Below are positions 18,952-62,717 of a DNA stretch of 64,000 nt, one piece after another. The notes under the pieces are model-generated. The model saw only the letters and a list, made by a program, of their open reading frames with translations, did not search any database and was not told the DNA's origin. The translations under genes were made by a program, and so were the position numbers. Within the stretch, counting starts at the first letter, position 1; each line of letters starts with the position of its first letter. The DNA comes from a virus: positions 19,386 to 83,385 of IMG/VR virus record IMGVR_UViG_3300037963_005450. One strand, given 5' to 3'.

Positions 18952-21900
18952 TTATTCATTACCTTTTTTAATTATGTGCGTCATTATATAATTTGGCACA
19001 TGCATTCCTAATTTCTTAGCATCTTTATAATGCATTCTATTAAGTTTATCATAAACTTTTTCAGCAAAAGTTATATCATCAGTATTATCATATACACCGT
19101 TTATGTAATCTTTATAAACTTGTAATTTATCTGTTTTTTTATTTTGCTTTTTGCTCATTTCTCCACCAACTTTCATGCTAGGAAATGCCAATGCTCCTCC
19201 AACATGTGGGTTACTAGCTTTATTAAATCCGCTCCATTGGTTAAAATCTAATTTTCCATTACTAGCTTGAGGTCTTGCACTAAAACTTCCTACATCATGA
19301 TAACCAAATATAAGTTCTTCAGGTTTTAGTTTATATTTTTTCATTATTTCATTGGCTGTTTTTTTTATCATATTAATTGAACCAGCCATTTCTATTGCCT
19401 CTCTTTGACCATTAGGTCTTTCTATAAAGAAAATAACACCTGTTCCACCAAATCTACCATATGCATTTTTACCACCTCTAGAGTTACTGGTAGGAAATAT
19501 TAAATGTGTTTCATTAGATTTTTTTCCACCTATGGTATAACTTTTACTAGTAGGTATTGATGATACTGTACTTTGAAATCCTTGAGCACTGGTTCTACCA
19601 TCCCAATTTAAATCAGACCATTTGTATTGTCGTAATGGTGAAGCAATAGAAGCATAATCTTTTATTTCATTCTTTTTTAAATACTTTATATTAACTTGAC
19701 CATTTTCTAATCTTTCATATACTGGAAAATAACCATCAGTTACAGTTGATCCTGGTGCTACAGGTTTTCCATTTAATTGGTCAGCAATCATTTTTTTAGC
19801 ATAAGGATGCTTGTATCCATCTGTTAAATCAGAGTCTAATAAAAAATGTGCAATTCCTTTAACATTTGAATATTGAGTGTTATCATCTGATTTACCATAG
19901 TTCTTTATAGGAACATAATTAAAACCATTCTTAGCATCAAAAGAATTTTGATACATCATTAAATTACCTTTACTATCTTTAACAGTTCCTAAATCTTTAT
20001 ATATAGGTTTTATTAAATTTACTTTTTCTAGATTTGGTGATTCTTGAATGTTTGTTTCTCCTGATACTCCATCAACATATAAAGGTGTTTCTCCTTCTTT
20101 TGCATTTAAAGCTAAACGTGCATTAAAAAGATCTACTTTATCCATTAATGGAGATTTTTCTTCTTCAAGATTAATATCAACATCAACTTTTTCTGTACTA
20201 TAAACATCACCATCCATATATTTTACATAACCTCTATGTAGATTATCTATTTTATCATCAATCCAATTCATAGCTATATCCAATGGAGAGTCTTTTTCTT
20301 TTGGTTTTGGCGGTTCTTTTTTATTAGGATCATATGCATAATGATGCTCCCCTAATGTTAAAGTATCATTTATATTAACTACTGTATTATCTCCGGGTGG
20401 CATAAATGATTCAACGGGCATTGTAATTAAATTTACATCAGTAGTTGATGGTTCTGCTTTATATTCATACTGTGTAAAATCTATCTTAGGTAAAAGTTTT
20501 TCTGTTGTTTCTTCTTTTACAATAGGTTTTGGTTGTTCAGTAATTACCGGTTCTGTTGGTGTATTTACTGAAGTGATTTTATTTGGTTTATTTATAACAG
20601 GTTTTTGTTGTACAACTTCTTGTACAACTTTTTCTTTTGTAGATGGTACTGTAACAGGCTGTTTTATTGGTGTTACAGGAGGTGTTACAATTGTTTGTTC
20701 AATTGGTTGTTCAACTGGTGCTATTGTTTCTTCAACAACTGTTTGTTGAATTGGTGTTCCCACTCCTGGAATATTTATTGAAGTGCCTTTAGCAATCATC
20801 ATTGGATTAACTCCGGGATTGGCATCTAATAATTCTTTTAATGTAATTCCAAATTTAGCAGCTATTCTAGGTCCTATTTCACCTTGTGAAACATATACAC
20901 TATCTGTTTTAATTTCATCACCAGTTTGTTTTTTTGGAAGTTCAAATAATTGATCATAATATGTTTCACTAATACTATCATGTTTAGATTTTAAATATTC
21001 TTCTTCCCACTTTTCATTATCTGCTAAAACTATTTTATGAACATAATCTTTAGTTTCTTCTGGTAATGATTCTAACCATTTCATATCATCACTATATATA
21101 TCAACACCTTTTTCTTTTTGGTTATTTAAAAATTCAGACATATTACCTCTTCCCCAATTATAAGCAGCAAATGTTTTTGCTCTTCTTACTATAGGAGATT
21201 GATTGGGTTTATTTATAAAACTGGCATTATATAAATGATCCATATACCATTTTTGTACTTTAGTAGCATCTTCAGGATCAAAAGGATCAACTTCTGTTTC
21301 TCCTGTTGCTTTTTTATAATCTTTAATAACAGCGTCTCCTAATTGAGCTATTCCTTTATAACCTGCTGGAGAAACAGCTTCTGGATCAAATGTAGATTCT
21401 TTATACGCTTGTCTTACCAACATTTCTTGAGGTATAGTATTTTCACGTTGTTCAAACAATTTTTGCATAAGTTTTAATTGTTCTAATTTTGTTGATGTTG
21501 CTGGTGCAGATGGTGCTGCTTTAGCTGCTATTGCAGACATTTTTTTTATAAAATTTCCATTTCCATTTTGAGCTTTTGGTAATGCCCCACCATATTGCAT
21601 TCCTTCATTAGAACCTGAAGAACCTGCTGCTACTCCAAGCCCTCCTGTAGCTACAGCACCTGCAACAACAGGTGTCCTATTTATTAAATCAATTATACCT
21701 TTTTTTCCTTCTGTAGATGGTTGTAAAAAACTTAATATTCTATTTTGTTTACCAGCATCTGATTTCCAAAACTGCATTAATGTCTTTTCATCAATAGGAT
21801 CTTGAAAGTTTTTAATTATTCCATTCTGATATAATTCATTTCTAAGTTCTCTTAACATTGCAAGAGGTTCATGTTGATGTGTAGTTTGATTAATAAAAGT

Positions 21901-24900
21901 AGTTTCATCTGGATATCTTTTTGTAAACTCTGATAATCTTTTATTTGCAAGTTCTTGATGTTCAACCATACTCTGCCATAAATCTTTTGTTTCTTTATCT
22001 CTAAAATAAGACTTAAAACCTTTATCACCCATTCCTTGCATTCTAGCTTCTTCAATATTTTTTGCTGCGGCATTAGCCTCATCAGTAAGATCTTTCAGCT
22101 GTACTTTATACCTATCTTGTGGTAATAAAAGATTTCCTTTATTATTTATATTATAATCCTTTTGAGTATAAGCAAAATTTTCAGCGTCTTTAGTAGACAA
22201 CCAATCATCTTCTTTTTTAAAGTTTCTAAAGAATTCAGAAGCTTCTTCATCAAATTTTGTCATAGGTTTATTTACAGTTTTAGGACTAATCCCCTCTATA
22301 GGTAAACCAGTTTTTGTACTTTTTACAGAATATGTTCTTTGAGGTAAATTCAACCCTCTTTTTTCCATATATCTTTGAATCAAATGACCAATTTCATGAT
22401 CTCCAGTATGAGATGTTATATTTGGAACATAAGCAAATCTTTCAGTATGTTGACCAATACCTAAATTAACTAAATCATCTACACCGGATACATTTCCTAC
22501 TGAACTTCCTGCATATCCTCCTCTTCCTGGTACATTTGTATATTGAACTTCGTTTAAAAGATATTGTATAAAATCATCTGGATCTTTAACTCCTAAATTA
22601 ATTAATTTTTCTTTAGCTGCAGGATTGTTAAAATTTTCTATTAAAGGCATTATATGATCATCAACATTTTCTAAAGGTTGTTCTAAATTTTTATAGGGTA
22701 GTGTAGTTTGATCTTTAAATTGTTCTCTTACTTTAGGATCTTTACTAGCTTTACCAGTATTAACTTTTATATTATGTTCAGATATTAATTCATTTTGTTT
22801 AGCTATTTGTTCATTTACTTCAGTAAGGCTTTGGTTATATTTTTCATTACCATAAAACGTAGATGGTTGTGTATCTACTTTTTGAGGCTTTTTTGGTATA
22901 TAAGTACCAGGCCAAAATTCAGTATCAACTCCTGTATTATCTGGAATGTTTGCCCAATCTGTATCATCTGCTTGATTTAATGTTGTTCGTGTCTCAACTA
23001 CTTCATCTGTTTCCTTTATAATATTAGGTTTTGTAGAACTTGTTTTTGATGATTTAACTGGTTTTACAATAATATCATTAAAGTGTCCTGTGTTATCTCT
23101 ACCAATAACTTTAAGGTTTGGCATTCCAAGTAATTCTTTCTCACCTAAAAGCTTTTCTGTAGTCATGAAAAAAGGTTTCTCTTTAGTTCCAACATTAGTA
23201 GTATTTATTAAATCTTGTAAGTTTTGGTTTTCTTTAATAGGAACTTTAAAAAAATCTTCTCCCATGTTTTTTGCATACCTTTCAGGTATTACTATTCTTT
23301 GAGTACCTGCTGGATTAAGTGGTGCACCATCTTTCCAAGCTCCTGTACTCCAAGATCTTGGAGAATCCCAAGTTACTTTAGAACCATATTCAGTAGGGAA
23401 GTTTTTTTGACTTCCATAATAACCTTGTATTCTAGATATAGGTGTATTTATAGATTGATCTCCTAAGTTGTATTTAGCAACAATTTCATCTAGCTTTAAT
23501 CTATCAGCACCTTTTATATCAGCTGGACTATGTTGCCAAAGTCTTACAATTTCAGCTTCCTCATCAGTTAAATTAGCACCTTTTAAAGCATCATAGTTTT
23601 TAGAACCTTGATAAGCAGCACTAATATTTCCTTCATTTAATCCAGATTTCCATGCAATAGGTAACGGAGAGTTTCCAGTAGCAACTGCATTATATCCACT
23701 TTTAATGGTTGGAATATATTGTTTTGCTGCTGCATATCCACCAGCACCTATACCAAACAAATCTAATCCTATAGACCCTGCATTACCCCAAGTTGGATTA
23801 TTAGCAAACTCTTGAACATCTCCTGGTAAATGTGTAGCTCCGTGATAAGCACCATAAGCATCCATAAGACCCCCAACAGTTACATCCCCAACAACTTTAG
23901 TTCCCATTACTTCACTAGCTGCAGGCATTACATAAGGTAATGCAGATGCAACCAATGGTAAAGCTGCAACAGTCATACCTGGTTTAACTATAGCATCAGT
24001 TATTTGTTGCCCATAATCATCTAAGTAATCACCTCCTCTAACACCCTCTATTATAGCTTGTCTTATGAGAGGATTGCTTGATCTATTTGCTGTTGAGCCA
24101 AATGTAGTACTATAAGGATTATGATGATCCCATAATGTTTCTTTTTGATTGTCACTTATAGTCTCCCATGCAGGATACCTTTTTTTCATTTCCTCCTCAT
24201 GCCTTAATCTCCATGAAGTTTCATCCCTTTGTCTTTGTGTTTCATCTGAAACAGTTTCTATTTCAAAATCAGGAAGATTACCTCCTATAAATATAGGTTC
24301 TAATTCACCTTCTGGTCCTGTAACATTTTCATCAAAGACATAATGTTTTAGTTGCCCTGCTTCATTTAATGCTCTAAATTCTTCCACCGTATAAGGTTTG
24401 CCAGTATTAGGATTTATACCTTTATCAGCCATCCAAACAGGAGCAGCCTCTTGCAACTTTTTTTCATAAACATAATTCTCTCTGTCTTGAGCTGCTTGAT
24501 CATTTTTATTTTTTTGATCCATAGCATAATTATAACGTAACCATTGAGAATTGCTATATGTTATAGGATTTCCACTTTTATCTAAAGGATTGGCTTGATC
24601 ATCATAACTTGCAACTTGAGCATCAAACTCTGCCTCCATTTCTGCAGGAGACTTATCAAATGAAAAGTTTTGTGTACCTGTTTCTACTCTAGTGGGTTCA
24701 TTAGAATTTTCCCCTTTAAATTGAAATATTGGAAGAATATCCCCACCGTCTTTTTTAATGCCTTGATTATATTGCATATTATCTTGCACATAACCAGCAT
24801 CACCTTGAAGCATAGCTTGTATTTGATTAAGTCTTTCTTTTTGAGATTGATTAAGACCGCTTCTAGCTTCTAAAGATTGTAAATCATTTTTTTCTCTATT

Positions 24901-25779
24901 TAACTCAACTATGTCTTTTTGTAAAAGCTTTTTATATTCTATTTGTTCTTGCTCTACTTGTTCTATAGTAGGTTGTGGTTCAATAATATCATTCGTATTT
25001 ATTGTAAAATTGTTTTCTTCATTATTTGTTGGATAACCCAAATCATGAATCATACTTCTTACTACTATATTTTGAGGAGGTAATCCTTTTAATAATTCTT
25101 CAATATTATGTTCAGCAAAATATTCAGGATTATTTGTTTGTGCCCAAGATATATATTGTTGATATTCATCATCAGTCATAGAATGTCGTGGTAATTTTCT
25201 ATGATAATTTTCTATTGTTGGTGATTTAGCTCCTTCCCAATCTGATTCTCCCCAACTTTTATCTACTATTAAATTTGACCCTGTTTTAAATTTTTTAGAA
25301 ATAGTTGCTTCACCAGGTTTAACTAGATCTTTATATTGTTCAAACCCTAAAAATTCAGGAGAATTCATCCATTCTGTACTATCAGTATAATCATCTACTA
25401 CTGACCATCTTAATTCATAAGCGTCTTTAGCAGCATCTATTTCTTTATTAAGTGATTCAATATTTTTATTCTCTTTTCTTATTTTTTTATACTCTTTGTA
25501 CCGTGGATCAAAAATGCTATTTATTTCTCCCTTAGATTGATATGAGGGTAGTATTGGAGATTCATCTACATAGTCTGCATTAGGAAAATAATAATCTTTA
25601 CCGGGATTCATTAATGTTGGTGGTCCTACATTTGGTTGAGCCCATACAGGATATGGTACACCTTTCATTGTAATATCATTACCCATTATACGTGTATTTT
25701 GACCAGGATATTTCCATTGACCTTGCTGATCTTTAACCAAATAATTTGGTCCTCCTTTTAACCCTATTCCTTTTCCCAT
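18952..25779 (-). CDS. Polyvalent virion protein: ART-like, zincin, lytic transglycosylase, LysM (2275 aa)
   Basis: Recognisable parts run in order. An N-terminal segment has a GVPYPV motif near residue 40. An ADP-ribosyltransferase-like region has R783, S811-T812-G813 and E880-K-E882 followed by LL, matching the R, STS and ExE pattern of arginine-type ARTs. A zincin motif HEIGH lies at 1128-1132. A lytic transglycosylase (SLT) domain has catalytic-type E1461 in KESTFDPEA, followed by GYKGIAQL. A LysM repeat spans about 1630-1672, followed by Pro/Thr/Val-rich linkers. A C-terminal domain of unknown type ends in YKDAKKLGMHVPNYIM. The transglycosylase plus LysM suits local peptidoglycan cutting during DNA entry; the ART and zincin could act on host proteins once injected. 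The stop of the muzzle-like gene overlaps its ATG by one base. Transglycosylase and LysM are firm calls; ART and zincin are motif-level inferences. Confidence 0.78.
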   Translation of the reverse strand: MGKGIGLKGGPNYLVKDQQGQWKYPGQNTRIMGNDITMKGVPYPVWAQPNVGPPTLMNPGKDYYFPNADYVDESPILPSYQSKGEINSIFDPRYKEYKKIRKENKNIESLNKEIDAAKDAYELRWSVVDDYTDSTEWMNSPEFLGFEQYKDLVKPGEATISKKFKTGSNLIVDKSWGESDWEGAKSPTIENYHRKLPRHSMTDDEYQQYISWAQTNNPEYFAEHNIEELLKGLPPQNIVVRSMIHDLGYPTNNEENNFTINTNDIIEPQPTIEQVEQEQIEYKKLLQKDIVELNREKNDLQSLEARSGLNQSQKERLNQIQAMLQGDAGYVQDNMQYNQGIKKDGGDILPIFQFKGENSNEPTRVETGTQNFSFDKSPAEMEAEFDAQVASYDDQANPLDKSGNPITYSNSQWLRYNYAMDQKNKNDQAAQDRENYVYEKKLQEAAPVWMADKGINPNTGKPYTVEEFRALNEAGQLKHYVFDENVTGPEGELEPIFIGGNLPDFEIETVSDETQRQRDETSWRLRHEEEMKKRYPAWETISDNQKETLWDHHNPYSTTFGSTANRSSNPLIRQAIIEGVRGGDYLDDYGQQITDAIVKPGMTVAALPLVASALPYVMPAASEVMGTKVVGDVTVGGLMDAYGAYHGATHLPGDVQEFANNPTWGNAGSIGLDLFGIGAGGYAAAKQYIPTIKSGYNAVATGNSPLPIAWKSGLNEGNISAAYQGSKNYDALKGANLTDEEAEIVRLWQHSPADIKGADRLKLDEIVAKYNLGDQSINTPISRIQGYYGSQKNFPTEYGSKVTWDSPRSWSTGAWKDGAPLNPAGTQRIVIPERYAKNMGEDFFKVPIKENQNLQDLINTTNVGTKEKPFFMTTEKLLGEKELLGMPNLKVIGRDNTGHFNDIIVKPVKSSKTSSTKPNIIKETDEVVETRTTLNQADDTDWANIPDNTGVDTEFWPGTYIPKKPQKVDTQPSTFYGNEKYNQSLTEVNEQIAKQNELISEHNIKVNTGKASKDPKVREQFKDQTTLPYKNLEQPLENVDDHIMPLIENFNNPAAKEKLINLGVKDPDDFIQYLLNEVQYTNVPGRGGYAGSSVGNVSGVDDLVNLGIGQHTERFAYVPNITSHTGDHEIGHLIQRYMEKRGLNLPQRTYSVKSTKTGLPIEGISPKTVNKPMTKFDEEASEFFRNFKKEDDWLSTKDAENFAYTQKDYNINNKGNLLLPQDRYKVQLKDLTDEANAAAKNIEEARMQGMGDKGFKSYFRDKETKDLWQSMVEHQELANKRLSEFTKRYPDETTFINQTTHQHEPLAMLRELRNELYQNGIIKNFQDPIDEKTLMQFWKSDAGKQNRILSFLQPSTEGKKGIIDLINRTPVVAGAVATGGLGVAAGSSGSNEGMQYGGALPKAQNGNGNFIKKMSAIAAKAAPSAPATSTKLEQLKLMQKLFEQRENTIPQEMLVRQAYKESTFDPEAVSPAGYKGIAQLGDAVIKDYKKATGETEVDPFDPEDATKVQKWYMDHLYNASFINKPNQSPIVRRAKTFAAYNWGRGNMSEFLNNQKEKGVDIYSDDMKWLESLPEETKDYVHKIVLADNEKWEEEYLKSKHDSISETYYDQLFELPKKQTGDEIKTDSVYVSQGEIGPRIAAKFGITLKELLDANPGVNPMMIAKGTSINIPGVGTPIQQTVVEETIAPVEQPIEQTIVTPPVTPIKQPVTVPSTKEKVVQEVVQQKPVINKPNKITSVNTPTEPVITEQPKPIVKEETTEKLLPKIDFTQYEYKAEPSTTDVNLITMPVESFMPPGDNTVVNINDTLTLGEHHYAYDPNKKEPPKPKEKDSPLDIAMNWIDDKIDNLHRGYVKYMDGDVYSTEKVDVDINLEEEKSPLMDKVDLFNARLALNAKEGETPLYVDGVSGETNIQESPNLEKVNLIKPIYKDLGTVKDSKGNLMMYQNSFDAKNGFNYVPIKNYGKSDDNTQYSNVKGIAHFLLDSDLTDGYKHPYAKKMIADQLNGKPVAPGSTVTDGYFPVYERLENGQVNIKYLKKNEIKDYASIASPLRQYKWSDLNWDGRTSAQGFQSTVSSIPTSKSYTIGGKKSNETHLIFPTSNSRGGKNAYGRFGGTGVIFFIERPNGQREAIEMAGSINMIKKTANEIMKKYKLKPEELIFGYHDVGSFSARPQASNGKLDFNQWSGFNKASNPHVGGALAFPSMKVGGEMSKKQNKKTDKLQVYKDYINGVYDNTDDITFAEKVYDKLNRMHYKDAKKLGMHVPNYIMTHIIKKGNE

Positions 25780-33644: not shown

Positions 33645-33968
33645 TTACCATTTTACTTTATGTGACCAATATCTTGCAGAAAGTTTTGATGGTTTTGAAT
33701 CTTGAGCATTATGTCTTGCATAATACGCTTTCTTTCTAGCTTTATCTTTTTTACTTTTAGGATTTTTACCAGCACCTTTTACCCCTTGTTGACCAAACCT
33801 TATTAATTTAGTTTTATCTCCAACTTTAGCAACAACAACATGTGATTTTTTAGGATGATTTGGTGTACGTTTAGGTTTATTATATCCAGAAACACCAGCT
33901 CTTGTTAACTTAGAATCTTTCTTTTTCTTAGTAGATCCTCCTTTTTTATATGTTTCTATTTTTCTCAT
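33645..33968 (-). CDS. Small basic phage protein with RFGQQG motif (107 aa)
   Basis: The protein is strongly basic, with Lys/Arg clusters at both ends, and carries GYNKPKRTPNHPKKSHVVV, then LIRFGQQG, then a KKAYYARH segment and a terminal YWSHKVKW. I recall this combination from small uncharacterised proteins of diverse environmental phages; no catalytic residues are evident. The stop of the neighbouring 80-residue gene and this ATG overlap by four bases, so they are translationally coupled. High positive charge and location among virion genes suggest nucleic-acid binding, possibly packaged. Function remains unproven. Confidence 0.6.
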   Translation of the reverse strand: MRKIETYKKGGSTKKKKDSKLTRAGVSGYNKPKRTPNHPKKSHVVVAKVGDKTKLIRFGQQGVKGAGKNPKSKKDKARKKAYYARHNAQDSKPSKLSARYWSHKVKW

Positions 33969-34207
33969 CTTTTTTTTCCTTTATGCAATCCATGTTTTGC
34001 GTGTTGTTTTCCTTTTTTTGTAGCTGCTCTTTTTTTTGCATTTGCAGCTGCTAACTTTTTTTTACCTTTTTTAGTGCTTTTAAGTTTAGCAATAGTTTTA
34101 GCTGGAGCATAAACCTCTCCTGTTTCTGAAGATTTTTTACCGCTAGCAGTTCTCCATTTTTGCTTAGTCCATCTATCTAAACTTTTTTGTCTTTTAGTTT
34201 TAGCCAT
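33965..34207 (-). CDS. Small lysine-rich protein (80 aa)
   Basis: Lys, Arg and Ala dominate, and the C-terminal half looks like a histone H1-type tail (repeats of KKGKK, AAANAKK and TKKGK). The N-terminus has a KSLDRWTKQKWRTASGK motif and a TGE-YAPAKTIA segment that I recall from small phage and giant-virus proteins (perhaps the DUF5872 group, uncertain). It overlaps both neighbours by one to four bases. Nucleic-acid condensation is a reasonable guess from composition; nothing in the sequence proves it. Confidence 0.58.
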   Translation of the reverse strand: MAKTKRQKSLDRWTKQKWRTASGKKSSETGEVYAPAKTIAKLKSTKKGKKKLAAANAKKRAATKKGKQHAKHGLHKGKKR

Positions 34208-34362
34208 TATTTTTTATGTTTGGTTTGCACATCAAAACTAGCATACAAACTTGCACCTTTATGAGGTACAAACTTTCCTGTATGTTTCATTAACTTTGGT
34301 GTTTTTTTACCATCTTTCATCCAATGAAATCCAGCTGGTGCTTTTATTTTTTTCTTTGCCAT
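34207..34362 (-). CDS. Small basic protein (51 aa)
   Basis: ATG at 34362 opens a 51-codon frame ending at 34207, where its stop shares one base with the next ATG (TAATG), which supports real translation. The product is rich in Lys and His (starts MAKKKIKAPAGFHWMKDG, ends QTKHKK). No family is recognised. It belongs to the same cluster of four consecutive basic genes and starts 3 bases after the upstream stop. Confidence 0.55.
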   Translation of the reverse strand: MAKKKIKAPAGFHWMKDGKKTPKLMKHTGKFVPHKGASLYASFDVQTKHKK

Positions 34363-34364
34363 AA

Positions 34365-34574
34365 CTATTTCTTTTTGCTTTTATATCCTCCACCTTTAGC
34401 TTTATATTGTTTAGCTAACATTTGTGCTTTTCTAGCAGACCATTGCCCAGGTTTTCCTCCTTTACTGCCAGCTTTAATTTTATTAAAAAGATTTTTACGC
34501 ATAGTAGGTTTTGTATAATTACCTGATGCATTTACCGTACTTTTTTTCTTTGTTGTTTTTTTCTTTGCTGGCAT
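34365..34574 (-). CDS. Small basic protein with GGKPGQWSARKAQ motif (69 aa)
   Basis: A Lys/Thr-rich leader (PAKKKTTKKK) is followed by a compact domain, residues of about 22-60, containing IKAGSKGGKPGQWSARKAQ and AKGGGYKSKKK. I associate this motif with small uncharacterised proteins of phages and other large DNA viruses (possibly the DUF5872 group). It starts four bases after the stop of the 223-residue connector gene. The charge suggests DNA binding within the particle or during assembly; the evidence for that is composition only. Confidence 0.58.
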   Translation of the reverse strand: MPAKKKTTKKKSTVNASGNYTKPTMRKNLFNKIKAGSKGGKPGQWSARKAQMLAKQYKAKGGGYKSKKK

Positions 34575-43540: not shown

Positions 43541-44791
43541 TTATGATGAGCTACTTGAGTAAGAAGTTGCACAAGCATCAGGTTTTTCAAATGGAACTGC
43601 AGCAACGCCTTCTGTGCATAGATCAGATAATTCGTCAAATATATCATCTAAGTTATCTTGTGTAGTTGTATCATCACAAGCAACATAAATTATTAAATGA
43701 TATTGATCATTATCAAATACTCCAGTAGGATTGTTTAATCTTGGAATATTGTGTAAGATATTATATGATAAATAAAGAATTGGATCTCCATTAGCATCAA
43801 ATCTAGGAACTGCATCTACTACAGCAGAAGAACCTTCAATTTCACGGATTCTTGCAGAATCTGCATTTCCTTGATTGTAAGGAGATTGTCTGTAACGCTC
43901 TGTCATTAAGATATCTCTTAATACAGTATCACCATGAGTTTGTTGAGTTGTTCCAGCTGTTCTTGTAATAGTTGCACATTTAACATCACAAGGATTTCCG
44001 CTTTCATCTTTAAGATCAAAATATAATTGAACTGGTTCAACATTGTAATGATCTCTAGTATCAAATGAACAGTTACCAAATTTAGTATCTACATAAGCAC
44101 CAGTAATAGTAATTCTACCACAGTTGTTAGAAGTAGTACCACTCCAAGTTTGCCCTTCATATGTTGCTAAATCATCATTTGGAATTGCTATGTAATTAGT
44201 ACCACCATCAGTAGAGTATTCAACTACTACAGAAATAAATGGAGCTAAAACTGGATTTTCTATTAATCCTAAAGCTAATCTAGCTAATACTAAACTAGGC
44301 TCAACATAGTCAACATCATTTACTGTTACTGAATTAGTACTATCACAGCAAATTCCTCCACTGTCAGTATCTCCATAAGCATTGTGATTTAAAAATCTTA
44401 ATGCTGGTGAACCTTTAACATCCATTCTTCCAAAATATGTTTCGTCACATTTAAAACATGTATCACATGCTTCAATTACAACTGTAGAAGGAGCTGCATC
44501 ACAGCATTCTGTTTTCCATAATTTACTAATATATCTTGGGTTAATACCTTTAGATTTTACAGATTCTTTATATCCACCGTGACCAGGATTGTTTCCAATC
44601 TTATCAGCAGGAGCAAAAGATCCTTGTACTAAAGTCATTAATTTTGTTGATATAGTACCAGTAGTTAAACCGGCAGCTTCTTGGGTAGCAAACCCAACGT
44701 GGCCTGCAGGAACGTCTACACTAAGTTGTCCGTTATCTGCAACCTTTTTTGCTAAAAATGCTTTTTTAAAAGCATGATTAAAATAAGCCAT
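43541..44791 (-). CDS. Abundant-type virion structural protein, Cys-rich (416 aa)
   Basis: The N-terminus (NHAFKKAFLAKKVADNG) is followed by a mostly beta-rich body with several cysteine pairs (ECCD near 112, CDTCFKC near 128, ICCD near 157) and a Ser-rich C-terminus ending in six serines. No enzymatic motif is visible. It has its own promoter-like motif and inverted repeat upstream and a strong terminator downstream, making it a monocistronic unit, as expected for a product needed in many copies such as a tail or head-decoration subunit. Codons appear unbiased relative to neighbours by eye. Exact role unknown. Confidence 0.6.
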   Translation of the reverse strand: MAYFNHAFKKAFLAKKVADNGQLSVDVPAGHVGFATQEAAGLTTGTISTKLMTLVQGSFAPADKIGNNPGHGGYKESVKSKGINPRYISKLWKTECCDAAPSTVVIEACDTCFKCDETYFGRMDVKGSPALRFLNHNAYGDTDSGGICCDSTNSVTVNDVDYVEPSLVLARLALGLIENPVLAPFISVVVEYSTDGGTNYIAIPNDDLATYEGQTWSGTTSNNCGRITITGAYVDTKFGNCSFDTRDHYNVEPVQLYFDLKDESGNPCDVKCATITRTAGTTQQTHGDTVLRDILMTERYRQSPYNQGNADSARIREIEGSSAVVDAVPRFDANGDPILYLSYNILHNIPRLNNPTGVFDNDQYHLIIYVACDDTTTQDNLDDIFDELSDLCTEGVAAVPFEKPDACATSYSSSSS

Positions 44792-44852: not shown

Positions 44853-44863
44853 AATATACAAAA
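44853..44863 (-). promoter_or_regulatory. Late promoter-like motif before the 416-residue gene
   Basis: Minus strand reads TTTTTGTATATTATTATTG. The long leader of about 60 bases to the ATG contains the inverted repeat at 44831-44847. Confidence 0.52.
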
Positions 44864-44892: not shown

Positions 44893-45057
44893 TTATTTTT
44901 TCTTTGCTACAAAAGACCATACAATACCAATAACTGACATTGCAGCTCCTACGCAATCTAACATAATTTCTTCTTCCAAAATACCCTTTGCTACTAGTGC
45001 ACCACCAACAACAGTTAGAGCATGTCTGATTAAACCATTTAATTGTTCTTTTTCCAT
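44893..45057 (-). CDS. Small holin-like membrane protein (54 aa)
   Basis: ATG at 45057 opens a 54-codon frame too short for usual cutoffs. The product begins MEKEQLNGLIRHALTVVGG and has two hydrophobic segments (about 13-26 and 34-51) separated by a short acidic turn, ending in AKKK. Spacing, the RHALT motif, the GxLVAxG segment and the terminal VWSF-AKKK match the compact holin-like family typified by Pam3 gp28. Such proteins make inner-membrane holes that release or activate endolysin. It lies 21 bases after the stop of a connector gene and far from the endolysin gene at 61408-62232. Function is inferred from motif and topology. Confidence 0.68.
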   Translation of the reverse strand: MEKEQLNGLIRHALTVVGGALVAKGILEEEIMLDCVGAAMSVIGIVWSFVAKKK

Positions 45058-45078: not shown

Positions 45079-45780
45079 CTAGTTAGATCTATCAGCACTT
45101 TGTGAACCACGGTAATATTGATTAACTTCATTAATATCACCAGCAATAAGTGAAGCACATTCATCTAACATTAATTCAACAATGTCATCTTTAAATTCAC
45201 ATTCAATATCAAAGAGACTTTGCTGTCCAGTGTAAGGATCTACACATCCTAAAATTTGTATATAAACAGGTTTTCTATAATATGTTAAAATAGGATTAGC
45301 CACATCAAAATCTGTTTTATATATTCTTATATTATTATCTATAAGAGTACAAAAAGTTTCTCCCCAATCAAAACTTGGGTTTTTTAAAGGATCTCTTAAA
45401 ATCAAATTAACATTTGCTTCTTCAGCTAAATAAACAGTCATTGATCTTGGATCAGTACAGCAATCTGTAACAGCTCCTGTGCTAACCCTTTTATACTCTA
45501 AATAATTATCAGGAAAATTTGTTGCTTCAAAATATTTATCTTCAACAACTCCAGTTAATGGCAATTCTCTTAAAAGAATTTGTAAATCATCTATTCTTCT
45601 TTTAGACATTTCATCACCTTCTTTATATGGATTTCCACCATGAAGTTGTCTTCTGCACCACTCAAGTTGAGTTTTATTAAATGCTTCAACTATTTGCCAA
45701 CATTCAATATTGTCATAATCTTGACTATCTAATTTATTTAGACGTTGCTTTAATTTTATTTGTAGTGCATCATTAGTCAT
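45079..45780 (-). CDS. Head-tail connector/adaptor-like protein (233 aa)
   Basis: The N-terminal helices carry RLNKLDSQDYDNIECWQIVEAFNK (read in parts), then QLHGGNPYKEGDEMSKRRIDDLQ, followed by a beta-rich middle and a C-terminal helix KDDIVELMLDECASLIAGDI. I recall this arrangement from a conserved structural gene of crAss-like phages. All-helical ends around a beta insert are typical of adaptor rings below the portal. It follows the 337-residue gene by three bases. Role is inferred. Confidence 0.6.
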   Translation of the reverse strand: MTNDALQIKLKQRLNKLDSQDYDNIECWQIVEAFNKTQLEWCRRQLHGGNPYKEGDEMSKRRIDDLQILLRELPLTGVVEDKYFEATNFPDNYLEYKRVSTGAVTDCCTDPRSMTVYLAEEANVNLILRDPLKNPSFDWGETFCTLIDNNIRIYKTDFDVANPILTYYRKPVYIQILGCVDPYTGQQSLFDIECEFKDDIVELMLDECASLIAGDINEVNQYYRGSQSADRSN

Positions 45781-45783
45781 ATT

Positions 45784-46797
45784 CTAAGCTTTCCAGTATT
45801 GTTCTACTTTTGACATTAAAGTTAATAATGTTTCTTCATTTTCTGGATTTTTTAAAAACTCAAGTACTTCCGTTGGTTTTTTCCCCAACTTCATTCCACC
45901 ATCTGTTGTTTCTATCCACCCATTAGATTTTGTAGTTATATATCTATAAAATAAAGCATCTTTTATTAAAGCTCTAATTTTAATATTTTCCATATTATCT
46001 TTAGCTGTTTCTAAAAATAATTTAGCAGCTCTTTTCTTGTTAGATTCAGAACCTTCACCATTAATAAATCCATCCATATTCTCATATATGATATCATTTG
46101 GTGTTGACTTAATATATTGAGAACTATCTACATCTACAATTTTAGCAACATACATAAGTTTTGTTGTATTTGTATCATATAGATTTTGTAATTCTACAAG
46201 TGCTTTATTTCTTAATTTACTGTATTCAGTTCTAGTAGAAATTGTTTCTTCTAATTGATCTAAATAAAATTTAGGAGGAACACTTTTATCTTTTGCTGCT
46301 TGTAATGATTTAGCAACCATAGAAAATCCTCCTGCATGTATAGCATATAATTTTACTAAATCATAAGGATCTGTAGAAGGATCTAAATAAACAGGATCAT
46401 TTCCACATCTCAAACTAATTTTACTCCAAAATTGATCATTATTTGGTTTAAGTAATTGTACTTTATTCCAAAAATCTTTGTCTTCTGGATCAATAACATT
46501 AGCTGCTAATTCTTTTTCAAGTTGACAAACAGCTTTTCTAATTTCTTTTACTTTTACTTCTTGTTCACCAGGAGGTAACATTTTAACTTCAGGAGCAAAT
46601 TCATTTAATCCTGTTACATATCTTTTAATCCCGTTCATTTCTAAACAAGCTAAAGATTCTTCATGATACACACCTTCATGTAATGCCATACCATAATTTT
46701 CTAATCCCATATTTGCTCTATTTTTATTGAAATATGGTCTAATAGCAATAGTTTTATTTTTGCTGCTATTATATTTTTCTACAATTGTATAACTCAT
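45784..46797 (-). CDS. Virion-region protein of unknown function (337 aa)
   Basis: No family recognised. The protein is largely helical after an N-terminal beta stretch (IAIRPYFNKNRANMGLENYG). Notable are a QLEKEL helix near 92 and an LRCGNDPVYLDPSTDPYDLVKLY segment (read in parts) near 127-150. There is no transmembrane segment or catalytic motif. Position between a post-capsid gene and a connector gene suggests a head-completion, vertex or tail-joining protein. It begins a unit with a TAAATTTG box 37 bases upstream. Confidence 0.5.
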   Translation of the reverse strand: MSYTIVEKYNSSKNKTIAIRPYFNKNRANMGLENYGMALHEGVYHEESLACLEMNGIKRYVTGLNEFAPEVKMLPPGEQEVKVKEIRKAVCQLEKELAANVIDPEDKDFWNKVQLLKPNNDQFWSKISLRCGNDPVYLDPSTDPYDLVKLYAIHAGGFSMVAKSLQAAKDKSVPPKFYLDQLEETISTRTEYSKLRNKALVELQNLYDTNTTKLMYVAKIVDVDSSQYIKSTPNDIIYENMDGFINGEGSESNKKRAAKLFLETAKDNMENIKIRALIKDALFYRYITTKSNGWIETTDGGMKLGKKPTEVLEFLKNPENEETLLTLMSKVEQYWKA

Positions 46798-46833
46798 AAT
46801 TTATTGGTTTTTATTAGTGAAACTTAATACTTG

Positions 46834-46841
46834 CAAATTTA
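46834..46841 (-). promoter_or_regulatory. Bacteroidota-type -7 box (TAAATTTG)
   Basis: Minus strand reads TTGCATAAATTTGCAAG. TAAATTTG matches the TAnnTTTG -7 consensus described for Bacteroides and Flavobacterium promoters, and it follows a terminator by about 30 bases. The sequence around it resembles the motif at 18918 (TGCATAAATATTTG). Confidence 0.48.
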
Positions 46842-46868
46842 TGCAATTTATTTGTAAAAATATTTCTA

Positions 46869-46890
46869 AAGCTGGGTTTTACCCCAGCTT
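46869..46890 (-). terminator. Hairpin terminator after the 251-residue gene
   Basis: An 8-bp stem (AAGCTGGG with CCCAGCTT) and a six-base loop are followed by TAGAAATATTTTTA, an interrupted T-tract. It lies 18 bases past the stop at 46909. Confidence 0.7.
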
Positions 46891-46908
46891 GAGTGTTTAA
46901 GTTTCAAT

Positions 46909-47691: not shown

Positions 47692-47713
47692 GGGAGGAGA
47701 CTAATCCCCTCCC
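47692..47713 (-). terminator. Hairpin terminator/attenuator after the capsid gene
   Basis: A 9-bp stem (GGGAGGGGA with TCTCCTCCC, one G-T pair) and a TTAG loop are followed by ATTTTTTAAC. It lies 11 bases past the capsid stop. There is no promoter motif between it and the next ATG at 47664. Confidence 0.78.
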
Positions 47714-55932: not shown

Positions 55933-56200
55933 CTACAATAATGGCTAATATATCTTGAATATTTATTAAAAGATGTTCTTCATTATCATGCATCATAACA
56001 ACCGGAACTGCATGATCTGCAAATTGAATATGATCTCCAGGTTTCATTGTATTAACTAAATCACCAACGGCAATAATAACACCTTTATTTTCTTTTTCTT
56101 GATTTCCAGGCATTAAGATGTTTGTACTACCATAATATTGTGGAGTTTCATCTTGCTTTATTAATACTTTATTTCCAACGGGAATGATTTTAGTACTCAT
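55925..56200 (-). CDS. GroES-like co-chaperonin (91 aa)
   Basis: The full length matches the GroES family: KIIPVGNKVLIKQDE at the start, a mobile-loop region with Tyr/Gly/Ser around residues 20-32, then NKGVIIAVGD, MKPGDHIQF and a terminal LAIIVDV strand. GroES proteins cap the host GroEL chamber; T4 gp31 shows that phages encode their own to fold large capsid proteins. No GroEL gene is in the window, so the host partner must be used. It overlaps TerL and the glycosyltransferase-like gene by 8 and 4 bases, so it is coupled to late expression. Confidence 0.88.
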   Translation of the reverse strand: MSTKIIPVGNKVLIKQDETPQYYGSTNILMPGNQEKENKGVIIAVGDLVNTMKPGDHIQFADHAVPVVMMHDNEEHLLINIQDILAIIVDV

Positions 56201-57660
56201 AGTTTTTGTTTTAAATAATTATATGTTATGTAACTGTTATTGGGTTCTGCTTTTCTAAAAAAGTATGCTCCTTTTTTTCTTTTTGCTTTTAAACTAGTTT
56301 CACTTAAAGAATTTGAAACACATCTGTGATTTCTATGAATTTTAAATTCTAGTATTTTTTTATTTATAATGTTATCTTTATCTAACTTTGATAATAAGTC
56401 ATAATAATAACTTTCATCAGGAACAGTTTTTGGCATGTCATAGGTGTCTTCTTTATCTCTATTTTCTAACACTAATTTAACATGATCTCTAGTTAATAAA
56501 AAGAATTGTGAACATTCCACACGGTTTTCTTTTTTTTGTATAATGCTTAACCAACTTTTTTTAGTATTTATAGTATCATTATAAATTTTATTAAAATCAT
56601 ATAAAGGAACGGTATCTGCAGATGTTAAAATAAATATTTTATTTGTTTCATTTTTATATGCTTCTTCTAACATATTGTTTGTTGCTTTAACTAAACTTAT
56701 ATCTCCCCATTTTGTAGGTATATGTTTTTTAATATGATTATCAATTAAAATTTTAGTTTTACACTTATCTTTATGTTTAATATGCGTATAAAAAGTACAT
56801 CTGTCTTTACCATCTTCTAAAAAATCAACCCAAACGTTTGGATAATTAAATGTTTCATATCCTAACATTAGTATTGCAATTTTATCTTTTTTATTAGATT
56901 TAAAATTTACTGTTTCATCAAATGCTTTACTATCCATTATATGATTGCCTTCTTCTTTACTTACAAATGATTTATTACATACCATAGCCCTTCTAGTTAT
57001 CTTATATCTCTTAGCAACTTCATACCAAATTTGTTCTCTTATAGCCCAGCTTTCATCTCCTTTTGTTAATTCTCTAACTCCCCCTTTAACTCTATCATGA
57101 GGGTTAATACATATAACATCATCTACTAATGCAATATTTTCATAACCGTTTGCCCATGCTGCTAATCTATCTATTCCCCAACCAACTAATTTAGGATCAA
57201 AAACATCCATTAATTTTCTTAAAGCATTTTTTGAAAATAAAGGAACATTAACTTCAACATAGTTTGTATATCTCATAAACCATTTAGGATTATTTACAGT
57301 TCTAGGATGAGATATTTTACAAGTTGGTTCAAATGTTGGTCCGCAAATACTAAGATTAAATTTTTTTGATATCATAAACATTTTATTAATATCCTCTGTA
57401 GATATTATTATGTCATCATCCAAAATAAATATTCTCTCATATTGAGATAAATCTTTGCTATTATATAAGTCATAAAAGTTTTGAAATTTAAAACCTTTTC
57501 TTTTAGTAATGTAATCTGAATGTTTTGAATATAGTTTATATTTTTTTTCATCATCACCATAATATGTTACCCAAAGATCATAATCTTTGCTATTACCACA
57601 CCAATGTTTGTAAAAATTAGTGTTGTCTCCCGCAGATGTAAAAACTAAATTATCTTTCAT
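56197..57660 (-). CDS. Two-domain glycosyltransferase-like protein (487 aa)
   Basis: Residues 1-245 look like a DUF707-type putative glycosyltransferase: RIFILDDDI with the acidic triad at 81-83, then GWGID at 160-164 and an INPHDRVKGG segment. Residues 258-460 resemble the core-2/I-branching N-acetylglucosaminyltransferase group (GT14): W318-GDISLVKATNNML, then NKIFILTSADTVPLYDF at 340-356, an ECSQFFLLTRDH acceptor segment, and VPDESYY at 413-419. The two halves are joined by a short linker. This would transfer sugars to modified phage DNA, a virion protein or host glycan; which one is not shown. It sits between a small helical gene and groES, both overlapping by four bases. Confidence 0.72.
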   Translation of the reverse strand: MKDNLVFTSAGDNTNFYKHWCGNSKDYDLWVTYYGDDEKKYKLYSKHSDYITKRKGFKFQNFYDLYNSKDLSQYERIFILDDDIIISTEDINKMFMISKKFNLSICGPTFEPTCKISHPRTVNNPKWFMRYTNYVEVNVPLFSKNALRKLMDVFDPKLVGWGIDRLAAWANGYENIALVDDVICINPHDRVKGGVRELTKGDESWAIREQIWYEVAKRYKITRRAMVCNKSFVSKEEGNHIMDSKAFDETVNFKSNKKDKIAILMLGYETFNYPNVWVDFLEDGKDRCTFYTHIKHKDKCKTKILIDNHIKKHIPTKWGDISLVKATNNMLEEAYKNETNKIFILTSADTVPLYDFNKIYNDTINTKKSWLSIIQKKENRVECSQFFLLTRDHVKLVLENRDKEDTYDMPKTVPDESYYYDLLSKLDKDNIINKKILEFKIHRNHRCVSNSLSETSLKAKRKKGAYFFRKAEPNNSYITYNYLKQKL

Positions 57661-61056: not shown

Positions 61057-61408
61057 ATCCTAAAATTTTAAAGTCTAAAAGTATTGTACCATCTGTTTGA
61101 ATATTTAATTCTTTGCTGATACAAATTGTTTTTTTATTCTTTCCCTTTTTAGTAATTAAATTTTTCTTAGCTGCTTTAGTTATAGCATTTCTAGCAGATT
61201 GTGGACTTTTAAATATGTCCACAACCGCTATATTTTTACAAAAAAGAGTTAGTTCTGTTTCACCGTCTTTAGCTAATTGGGTCAAACATTTAAGATCAGA
61301 GTTACTAATTTGAATATTATTAAAAAAACAATGAGTCATTATCTGATACTCTATTGCATCATTAACAGTAACTTTGATTCTTTTATCTACTTTATTTACA
61401 AGTGCCAT
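61037..61408 (-). CDS. Putative winged-helix-like protein (123 aa)
   Basis: The sequence shows alternating helices, including VTVNDAIEYQIMTHCFF, LKCLTQLAKDGETEL and SPQSARNAITKAAKKNLI, followed by KKGKNKKTICISKEL, a beta-hairpin-like stretch. The helix plus basic hairpin layout resembles winged-helix DNA-binding proteins, but no exact family is recognised. One-base overlap with the endolysin gene and a 20-base overlap with the IHF-like gene couple it to both. A late transcription factor role is conceivable, given the IHF-like neighbour. Confidence 0.45.
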   Translation of the reverse strand: MALVNKVDKRIKVTVNDAIEYQIMTHCFFNNIQISNSDLKCLTQLAKDGETELTLFCKNIAVVDIFKSPQSARNAITKAAKKNLITKKGKNKKTICISKELNIQTDGTILLDFKILGYEPQKA

Positions 61409-62232
61409 TATATAATATCTTTAGATTCAATAAGGGTATAAGTAAACCAAGGATAACCAGCTTCTTTTGATTTTCTAGCTAATGACATAAAATCATCAAA
61501 ATCATCTGGATCAGAAAATACTTGACACCCTGCTGAATATTTATTAATGTAGCTTCCTTTTCTATACGCTGAACTACGGTGAATATTAATACCAAAGTAT
61601 CCTACATCAACAGTTTCAGGATCATGATTATAAATATCATCACGGTTGCCATCACGATACACACTTACCCTCCCACCTCTTTGGCATAAAGCATCATATT
61701 TTCCAAGGTGTTTGGTAATTTTATATGTTTTAATGTATTGACCTGGTACTAAAATAGCACATCCATCCGTATTCATAGGATGATCTATCCAGTATTCACC
61801 AGGATCTGTTGTAATAGGCCAACAATGATACTTCATATGACCATTATCTAAATAAGAAACAGTCATAAGATCATCATATAGATTAGTAAGTCTGTTTTCT
61901 GTTTTAGAGTTTCTAATTCCTACTATATTTAATAGCCAATCTTTTTTAAAATAAGTGTATCCTTTTGCTTTAACTGCATCTTCAATTTGTTGACGAGAAT
62001 ATTGACAGTATCCACTATCACAATAATCATCACCCAATTTAACAGCTGTAGCTTCTAATACACTCCAAGTTTTTACACCTACTATTCCATCAACAGTTAA
62101 GTTATATTTAGATTGAAACTCTTTAACTTTCTTTTCAGTTTGAGGACCAAAGATGCCATCTTTATCAATCCCCAGAAACCTTTGGAGCTTTATTACATCA
62201 CTTCCACGGTCCCCACGCCTTAGAGTTTTCAT
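61408..62232 (-). CDS. Endolysin: peptidoglycan-binding domain plus L,D-transpeptidase-like catalytic domain (274 aa)
   Basis: Residues 1-66 are a peptidoglycan_binding_1 domain (LRRGDRGSDVIKLQRFLG, DGIFGPQT, VDGIVGVKTW). The C-terminal half has H218, then 14 residues, then S233-A-G-C236, matching the catalytic HX14-17[S/T]HGC signature of the YkuD fold except that Ala replaces the His before Gly-Cys. C236 would be the nucleophile. In cells YkuD enzymes crosslink peptidoglycan; phage relatives can cut. There is no signal peptide, so release by a holin is expected. It shares one base with each flanking gene (TAATG junctions). Confidence 0.78.
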   Translation of the reverse strand: MKTLRRGDRGSDVIKLQRFLGIDKDGIFGPQTEKKVKEFQSKYNLTVDGIVGVKTWSVLEATAVKLGDDYCDSGYCQYSRQQIEDAVKAKGYTYFKKDWLLNIVGIRNSKTENRLTNLYDDLMTVSYLDNGHMKYHCWPITTDPGEYWIDHPMNTDGCAILVPGQYIKTYKITKHLGKYDALCQRGGRVSVYRDGNRDDIYNHDPETVDVGYFGINIHRSSAYRKGSYINKYSAGCQVFSDPDDFDDFMSLARKSKEAGYPWFTYTLIESKDII

Positions 62233-62546
62233 TAGTCTTGGCGTTTTAAGGTTCTCCCCTTCTTCATTGCTTGCTCAAATTCTTCAGACATTTGCTCTGC
62301 ATTTGGGTTTTGTTGCCCATTGGCTGCAGCTTGTGCTTGTACCATAAACATTTGAGCTTGCGTTCTTTCTGCTCTTCTTTTTTCAATATCACATAGTAGA
62401 GTTTCATACTCTAATTGCACTTTTAAATGCTTGATATTGTCTTTGTAAAATTTAGTAATTTCCGCTCTTCTTTCTTCTAACTGCTCTGGCGTTAGTTCAG
62501 GAGCTTCTGTTTGCATTTTTTCTGCATTATCAACAACTTTTTCCAT
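62232..62546 (-). CDS. Small coiled-coil protein (104 aa)
   Basis: A single long charged helix (residues of about 15-65, with EQLEERRAEITKFYKDNIKH) is followed by a Met/Ala/Gln-rich segment and a basic tail (KKGRTLKRQD). No transmembrane part. It starts its own unit 31 bases after a TATATTTG box and its stop overlaps the endolysin ATG by one base, so it may help endolysin expression or be a virion-assembly helper. No family recognised. Confidence 0.5.
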   Translation of the reverse strand: MEKVVDNAEKMQTEAPELTPEQLEERRAEITKFYKDNIKHLKVQLEYETLLCDIEKRRAERTQAQMFMVQAQAAANGQQNPNAEQMSEEFEQAMKKGRTLKRQD

Positions 62547-62570
62547 AATATTGGTTTTTAATTAATATAA

Positions 62571-62589
62571 TTGTTACAATACAAATATA
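62571..62589 (-). promoter_or_regulatory. Promoter-like box before the lysis and packaging train
   Basis: Minus strand reads TATATTTG followed by TATTGTAACAA. TATATTTG fits the Bacteroidota TAnnTTTG -7 box, and TATTGTAACAA is shared with the leader at 44840-44850. The start codon lies 24 bases downstream. Confidence 0.5.
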
Positions 62590-62630
62590 TATAAAATAAG
62601 TTTAAATACTAAAAGTTTAGCCTATTAAAT

Positions 62631-62717
62631 TTATTTTCTTTTTTCAGTAATAATATAAAGTATTACGATTGCACCCACTATCCAGGCCGCTATTACTATA
62701 TCAGGAATATTTTCCAT
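62631..62717 (-). CDS. 28-residue single-pass membrane peptide
   Basis: ATG at 62717 gives a 28-codon frame ending TAA at 62631. The product, MENIPDIVIAAWIVGAIVILY then IITEKRK, is one hydrophobic helix with a positive tail, the topology of small antiholin- or spanin-like peptides. It starts 7 bases after the methyltransferase stop and lies upstream of the endolysin unit. Short length makes the call uncertain, but the frame is clean and fills the gap. Confidence 0.4.
   Translation of the reverse strand: MENIPDIVIAAWIVGAIVILYIITEKRK

Follow-up and report, generated by a model that had tools for sequence, protein, structure and literature searches.

A Phage_holin_10 gene of 54 codons in the virion block of a crAss-like phage, 16 kb from the endolysin candidate

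Holin and endolysin genes are non-adjacent in phage T4 (t and e) as well as in phage T7 (17.5 and 3.5). For crAss-like phages, host lysis is little worked out. In crAss001 (Steigviridae), the annotated lysis genes gp27, gp28 and gp30 are situated in the virion block, between portal and major head protein, and the annotated holin is found two genes before an L,D-carboxypeptidase gene, in contrast to the putative holin described below, which has no recognised wall enzyme adjoining it. According to excerpts of further reports, a holin is listed among the variable ORFs of a crAss isolate (PMC10354031), for Zeta crAss four putative lysin genes are given alongside a holin (PMC12386605), and for other crAss-like phages recoded stops in lysis genes are mentioned in reviews.

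In this study, we analysed a stretch of 64,000 nucleotides (the window, G000:C1:19386-83385) from a virus record of 115,963 bp. All listed frames of more than 100 aa in the window are encoded on the minus strand. Judged by its hallmark virion genes, the phage is crAss-like (Crassvirales-type): the window contains matches to CrAss_Ring_1 (43.7 bits) and CrAss_Ring_2 (77.5 bits, cut-off 27 in both cases) and the PHROG hallmarks for portal (phrog_6547), TerL (phrog_6681) and MCP (phrog_11589). A megablast search of 10 kb against 50,697 phage records returned no match, and the closest MCP of an isolate is that of Leptolyngbya phage Lbo-JY46, with 28.8% identity. With respect to stop recoding, the 54-aa gene contains no in-frame stop, and the 2656-aa frame that is open at the window edge shows no recoded codon in the TAG=Q listing. 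Among other genes, four consecutive small and very lysine-rich proteins are encoded at 33645–34574 (-), perhaps DNA-binding virion proteins, and a 487-aa protein with matches to Core-2/I-branching glycosyltransferase and DUF707 lies among the late genes (56197–57660, -). The features relevant to the lysis genes are collected in Table 1.

Table 1 Features around the 54-aa gene and the endolysin candidate (window positions)
Feature	Position	Strand	Remarks
416-aa gene downstream of the 54-aa gene, 101-bp gap	43541..44791	-	no family match
Promoter-like TTTTGTATATT, a short way downstream of the putative holin gene	44853..44863	-	kept in L013, L014, L016
54-aa PF23987 (Phage_holin_10) gene	44893..45057	-	Pfam, conservation, AlphaFold2 hairpin
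233-aa neck/ring-type virion gene	45079..45780	-	'virion structural protein' PHROG
337-aa gene, first of the 337-233-54 group	45784..46797	-	
Gap with hairpin (by eye) and TAAATTTG before the 337-233-54 group	46798..46908	-	kept in L013, L014
Intrinsic-terminator-like hairpin after the MCP gene, 9 pairs, 6 G-C	47692..47713	-	
Endolysin candidate, 274 aa: PG_binding_1 19-59, phrog_3000 86-272	61408..62232	-	
104-aa gene adjoining the endolysin gene upstream	62232..62546	-	kept in L064, L066; no Pfam match
Gap with TATATTTG before the 104-aa and endolysin genes	62547..62633	-	kept in L064, L065, L066
28-aa single-TM frame MENIPDIVIAAWIVGAIVILYIITEKRK	62634..62717	-	kept in L064, L065, L066

The minus-strand frame at 44893–45057 starts with ATG at 45057, stops at 44893 and encodes the 54-aa protein MEKEQLNGLIRHALTVVGGALVAKGILEEEIMLDCVGAAMSVIGIVWSFVAKKK; read in the same way, the plus strand shows several in-frame stops. 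The original prediction had described a 54-codon frame below common cutoffs, and it is indeed shorter than the 60 aa required in the first ORF listing, from which one could suspect a chance open frame. This reading is, however, already refuted and its probability negligible, given a Pfam match far over cut-off, substitutions at third positions and kept synteny. The frame is beyond chance and thus a genuine gene, since its product matches PF23987 with 58.4 bits at a gathering cut-off of 27. Conservation of the small frame, which had been proposed as a check, could be confirmed: relatives are found at 39 viral-contig loci, and nucleotide comparison shows the frame intact and of equal length in two of them, differing from the first (L013) at 12 nucleotides, 11 of them in third position (dN 0, dS 0.44), and from the second (L014) at 9 nucleotides, 7 of them in third position (dN 0.008, dS 0.26). 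With dN/dS far below 1 against both relatives, the gene is under purifying selection. The start codon is preceded by TAAAA at -13, a motif located between -16 and -8 in 9 of 27 long genes compared to 112 of 1899 other ATGs.

Based on this profile match, the 54-aa protein is a member of the Phage_holin_10 family (PF23987, the Pam3 gp28 family). It has the size of the family members and covers the profile from position 1 to 52 of 52, and it is the single match, over cut-off, in the whole 115,963-bp record. In PHROGs, the match to a 'holin' family is weak (E 0.11), and among solved structures no match was obtained. While a one-sequence query detected PF23987 relatives at 3 viral-contig loci, an alignment query detected 39, of which 28 were aligned together with the window protein (29 rows; the 11 omitted loci are mostly duplicates). 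GLIRHALT, G18, G19, G37, G44, W47 and S48 are invariant in all 29 rows, where the invariance of GLIRHALT is partly built in, as it served as search pattern of the 39-locus scan. From this alignment, AlphaFold2 predicts a two-helix hairpin with helices at 3–23 and 29–53 (pLDDT 89.3, pTM 0.50). In a hydropathy scan at a threshold of 1.6 helix 2 alone passes, and helix 1 contains R11 and H12. The acidic loop (charge -3) and the KKK tail at the C-terminal end (+3) suggest a topology with both ends inside, the N-in/C-in arrangement of class II holins with their two TM helices, which the charge of -1 at the N-terminal end does not favour.

Neither the window protein nor its counterpart from the more distant locus L016 found a relative among phage (isolate) records, in contrast to three matches for the PF23987 protein of L047, and a scan of genome contigs returned none. 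The PF23987 profile matches Pan4, Mel-JY03 and Mae-JY02; it matches neither crAss001 nor PaV-LD. Searched up to a maximum E of 1, it also has no match in Lbo-JY46, ctcc615, csAssE-Sib, crAss002 and phi17:2, a limit at which matches, none of them over cut-off, appear in 8 of 14 control genomes.

The 233-aa gene ends 21 bp upstream of the 54-aa gene; its product has no match in a Pfam scan. Together with the 416-aa gene downstream, it frames the 54-aa gene in L013 (L001), L014 (L002) and L016 as well, the last being more distant, with a PF23987 protein of 61% identity and the downstream frame split in two. In csAssE-Sib, a 224-aa gene annotated as ring/adaptor follows a 362-aa gene and is second after the MCP, while in the window the 233-aa gene comes behind the 337-aa gene, in third place after the MCP, a similar layout. 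The connector neighbour of the original prediction is, by this layout, plausible for the 233-aa gene. Its description of the holin-like gene as hidden in the structural block is correct in so far as the gene is located among virion genes; this location is, however, not unusual, as gp27, gp28 and gp30 of crAss001 illustrate.

What speaks for a holin role of the 54-aa protein is mainly gene adjacency in cyanophage isolates. Pseudanabaena phage Pan4 has its PF23987 gene 51 bp after a Peptidase_M15_4 gene, in Microcystis phage Mel-JY03 it overlaps with an Amidase_2 gene by 4 bp, and in Mae-JY02 it is laid out as in Mel-JY03, next to a neighbour that is a 'lysozyme' by annotation only. Since the 57-aa PF23987 segment is 100% identical in all three isolates (L076, L077, L078), the adjacency has to be counted as approximately one case; it is close to a single case, yet with two types of wall enzyme beside an identical segment. 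All three members are annotated as 'hypothetical protein', which illustrates how readily a short holin gene within a virion block is overlooked. Together with the strong Pfam match and the hairpin model, the adjacency upholds the family identity behind the designation as holin-like in the original prediction.

Metagenomic PF23987 genes, on the other hand, are rarely located beside a recognised wall enzyme, which counts against the holin reading. In a Pfam scan of 101 flanking proteins (minimum length 70 aa, no more than two per side, taken from 26 loci; the remaining 13 of the 39 are mostly near-duplicates), one wall-hydrolase match, Peptidase_M23, was found among the 25 families listed out of 26, and none of the 25 PHROG families listed out of 73 is named for lysis. 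In G003, the PF23987 gene is situated between a TerL-like gene (weak match, E 3e-4) and the portal gene, another position in the packaging block. The usual absence of a wall enzyme beside the relatives on viral contigs would suit a membrane protein outside lysis, taking part in entry or membrane remodelling or serving as a virion component, for which 'holin' is a positional label. In the same direction point the location within a virion-gene group, the best PHROGs match of the 54-aa protein (phrog_37382, 'unknown function', E 2.5e-8) and the Pfam name of PF23987, which presumably stems from annotation and not from an assay. We nevertheless regard a function outside lysis as unlikely, considering the two wall-enzyme types directly adjacent in the cyanophage isolates and the holin-like size and hairpin of the 54-aa protein. 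Among the matches listed in our literature searches, no assay of holin activity was found for PF23987, and gp28 is not described in the excerpt of PMC11598953.

The endolysin candidate of 274 aa is located 16,350 bp upstream of the 54-aa gene on the same strand, so that the distance of about 16 kb given in the original prediction agrees with the measured one. Wall-cleaving activity of its C-terminal domain can be inferred from the match to phrog_3000, a family itself of 'unknown function', from weaker matches to PHROGs named 'endolysin', and from the conserved H218 and SAGC residues; the domain may carry an L,D-transpeptidase-like motif. AlphaFold2 on 7 endolysin rows gave a pLDDT of 51.7 and a good model mainly for the peptidoglycan-binding part, and the best stretches in PDB searches fall within the first 82 positions. 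The sequence of the candidate has no N-terminal hydrophobic segment. Two genes upstream of it lies the 28-aa frame MENIPDIVIAAWIVGAIVILYIITEKRK, with dN of approximately 0.37 and dS of 0.84–1.0.

The separation of the lysis genes, as originally proposed, is found in the window and retained in two related records, with 16,404 bp in G001, the endolysin frame being read there as two pieces, and 16,341 bp in G002 if its record ends are joined; a compact cassette with the holin gene adjoining the endolysin gene occurs in none of the three. The gene order of G002 and G009, in which one stretch bears genes from both ends of G000, supports a circular map. Among the window proteins scanned by Pfam or PHROGs, 61408–62232 is the sole endolysin candidate, where the scan left out the 2315-aa protein, the 2656-aa edge frame, the genes at 33645–34574 and several small genes. 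In the flanks of G000, no wall-hydrolase is among the 22 families found for the 24 of 63 listed frames that were scanned. Since some proteins of window and flanks were left out of the scans, a further endolysin may be encoded among them. The search for an endolysin closer to the putative holin gene turned up only the 2275-aa protein at 18952–25779 (-), which has an SLT transglycosylase domain as well as a sub-threshold LysM match and is more likely a virion entry lysin; the Rz-like spanin PHROG matches of a 369-aa protein look like generic coiled coil. PF23987 is absent from five contigs with endolysin relatives (G009, G010, G011, G012 and G013). Of these, G011, whose endolysin is 58% identical to the window candidate, is the only informative absence, because G009, G010 and G013 stop short of the expected PF23987 place and G012 comprises 9 kb.

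Outside the window, the same genome contains a second holin-family gene. A 134-aa protein that closes the late block (G000:C1:114207-114440; L083:14176-14577) matches PF11351, GTA_holin_3TM, with 25.3 bits in the six-frame search and 26.8 bits as protein at a cut-off of 24.8, a marginal match covering residues 13–90 with the C-terminal hydrophobic part outside. Matches are found in 3 of 16 records searched (G000, G002 and G009; 25.3 to 25.7 bits), the proteins of G002 and G009 being 94–95% identical to that of G000, and G011 contains a relative undetected by the profile search, with 45 of 73 residues identical. A few genes upstream of the PF11351 gene, a 104-aa protein that combines a hydrophobic N-terminal segment with a coiled coil appears, by eye, i-spanin-like. 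With the ends of G000 joined on paper, the PF11351 gene follows the 54-aa gene in the late direction at a distance of 65.8 kb; in G002 the distance is 65.0 kb. With a second holin-family gene in the same genome, the case for the 54-aa protein as sole timer of lysis is weakened.

The PF11351 protein could even be the main lysis holin, with the 54-aa protein as an accessory in the form of an antiholin, a second holin or a timing modulator. Its matches over cut-off in three records, its closing position in the late block, a few genes from the i-spanin-like gene, and its relative in G011, where PF23987 is absent, would agree with such a role, while the score barely over cut-off, the coverage of residues 13–90 alone and the likewise large distance to the endolysin gene (32.6 kb on the G000 map) make it a possible but rather doubtful alternative. 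It overlaps with the preferred explanation, and the confidences given to the readings do not sum to one.

The original prediction further proposed that splitting the lysis genes would make lysis timing depend on a different late promoter. Indirectly in favour of this, the strong terminator-like hairpin after the MCP gene, through which transcription may still read, lies between the endolysin and putative holin genes and recurs in L013 and L014 and, as judged by eye, in L016, and the 337-233-54 group is preceded by the conserved block with TAAATTTG, which, together with its hairpin, is absent from L016, where other genes are found. Against it, according to a Crassvirales review (PMC10136315), the late genes for structure and lysis make up one cohesive transcriptional unit. 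Terminator-like sites number 16 on both strands compared to 5.7 in shuffles, and a scan for sigma-70-type promoters gave 93 sites at a shuffle mean of 114.1 and was uninformative.

The element TTTTGTATATT is absent from the 21 bp upstream of the 54-aa gene. It was chosen by eye after the gaps had been inspected, which makes all counts for it post hoc. Allowing one mismatch at most, it occurs at 23 sites compared to 12.6 expected (2 of 100 shuffles reach 23). The minus strand has 10 of these, 7 lying in gaps; the other 13 are on the plus strand, all outside gaps. It is present in 7 of the 13 gaps of at least 30 bp, at a mean of 0.26 and a maximum of 3 in 2000 single-letter shuffles, and 1 of 500 letter-permuted motifs likewise reached 7 gaps. 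The gap sites (18918, 35800, 37080, 41451, 43454, 44853 and 50769, minus strand) always point in gene direction. A second motif, TAnnTTTG, has 2 sites in minus-strand gaps, preceding the endolysin group and the holin group, compared to 0.65 expected, and 1 site in plus-strand gaps, a weak enrichment. The hairpins and promoter-like blocks fit separate transcription segments and prove none.

We propose that the 54-aa gene of the late block encodes a small membrane protein with two helices, belonging to the Phage_holin_10 family, which probably acts as a holin. For its mode of action we infer late timing, membrane insertion, topology, pore formation, separate transcription and a division of labour. 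The protein would be made with the neck group 337-233-54, probably from a transcription segment other than that of the endolysin, and would reside in the inner membrane as a hairpin with both ends inside, the acidic loop facing out and the KKK tail in. It would accumulate during late expression, then oligomerise and open the membrane, through which the endolysin of 61408–62232, having no N-terminal hydrophobic segment, could reach the wall. Lysis may also be partly or wholly the task of the PF11351 protein, whose gene comes last in the late block.

We give little credence to a wider reading, a dispersed lysis programme in which endolysin, PF23987 protein and PF11351 protein with the spanin-like protein each have their own segment and TAnnTTTG marks a lysis-linked promoter class. 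If true, the endolysin upstream of TerL, PF23987 in the neck group and PF11351 at the far end would imply that lysis fires only once the whole late block has been read, and the TAnnTTTG class would be distinct from the TTTTGTATATT class of the 7 other gaps. As PF23987 and PF11351 occur in one genome, distant from each other and both far from the endolysin gene, they provide concrete pairs to test.

In comparison with known systems, the PF23987 genes of Pan4, Mel-JY03 and Mae-JY02 abut a wall-enzyme gene, whereas the member in the window belongs to the neck group and is separated from its putative partner by 16 kb. Unlike the window phage, crAss001 has neither a PF23987 nor a PF11351 match, and the putative holin gene of the window is situated after the MCP. 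The C-terminal part of the endolysin candidate is 40% identical to gp5 of crAss002 and 49% to a peptidoglycan-binding protein of ctcc615 (Intestiviridae), where the endolysin-like genes are located upstream of TerL as in the window. However, only one or two genes separate them from TerL in crAss002 and ctcc615, compared to 12 genes and 5,475 bp in the window, and both phages differ from the window phage in having no PF23987 match. The lysis genes of T4 and T7 lie apart as in the window, although proteins and phages are unrelated. The gene described here adds a member to the known PF23987 family, and its split layout has precedent.
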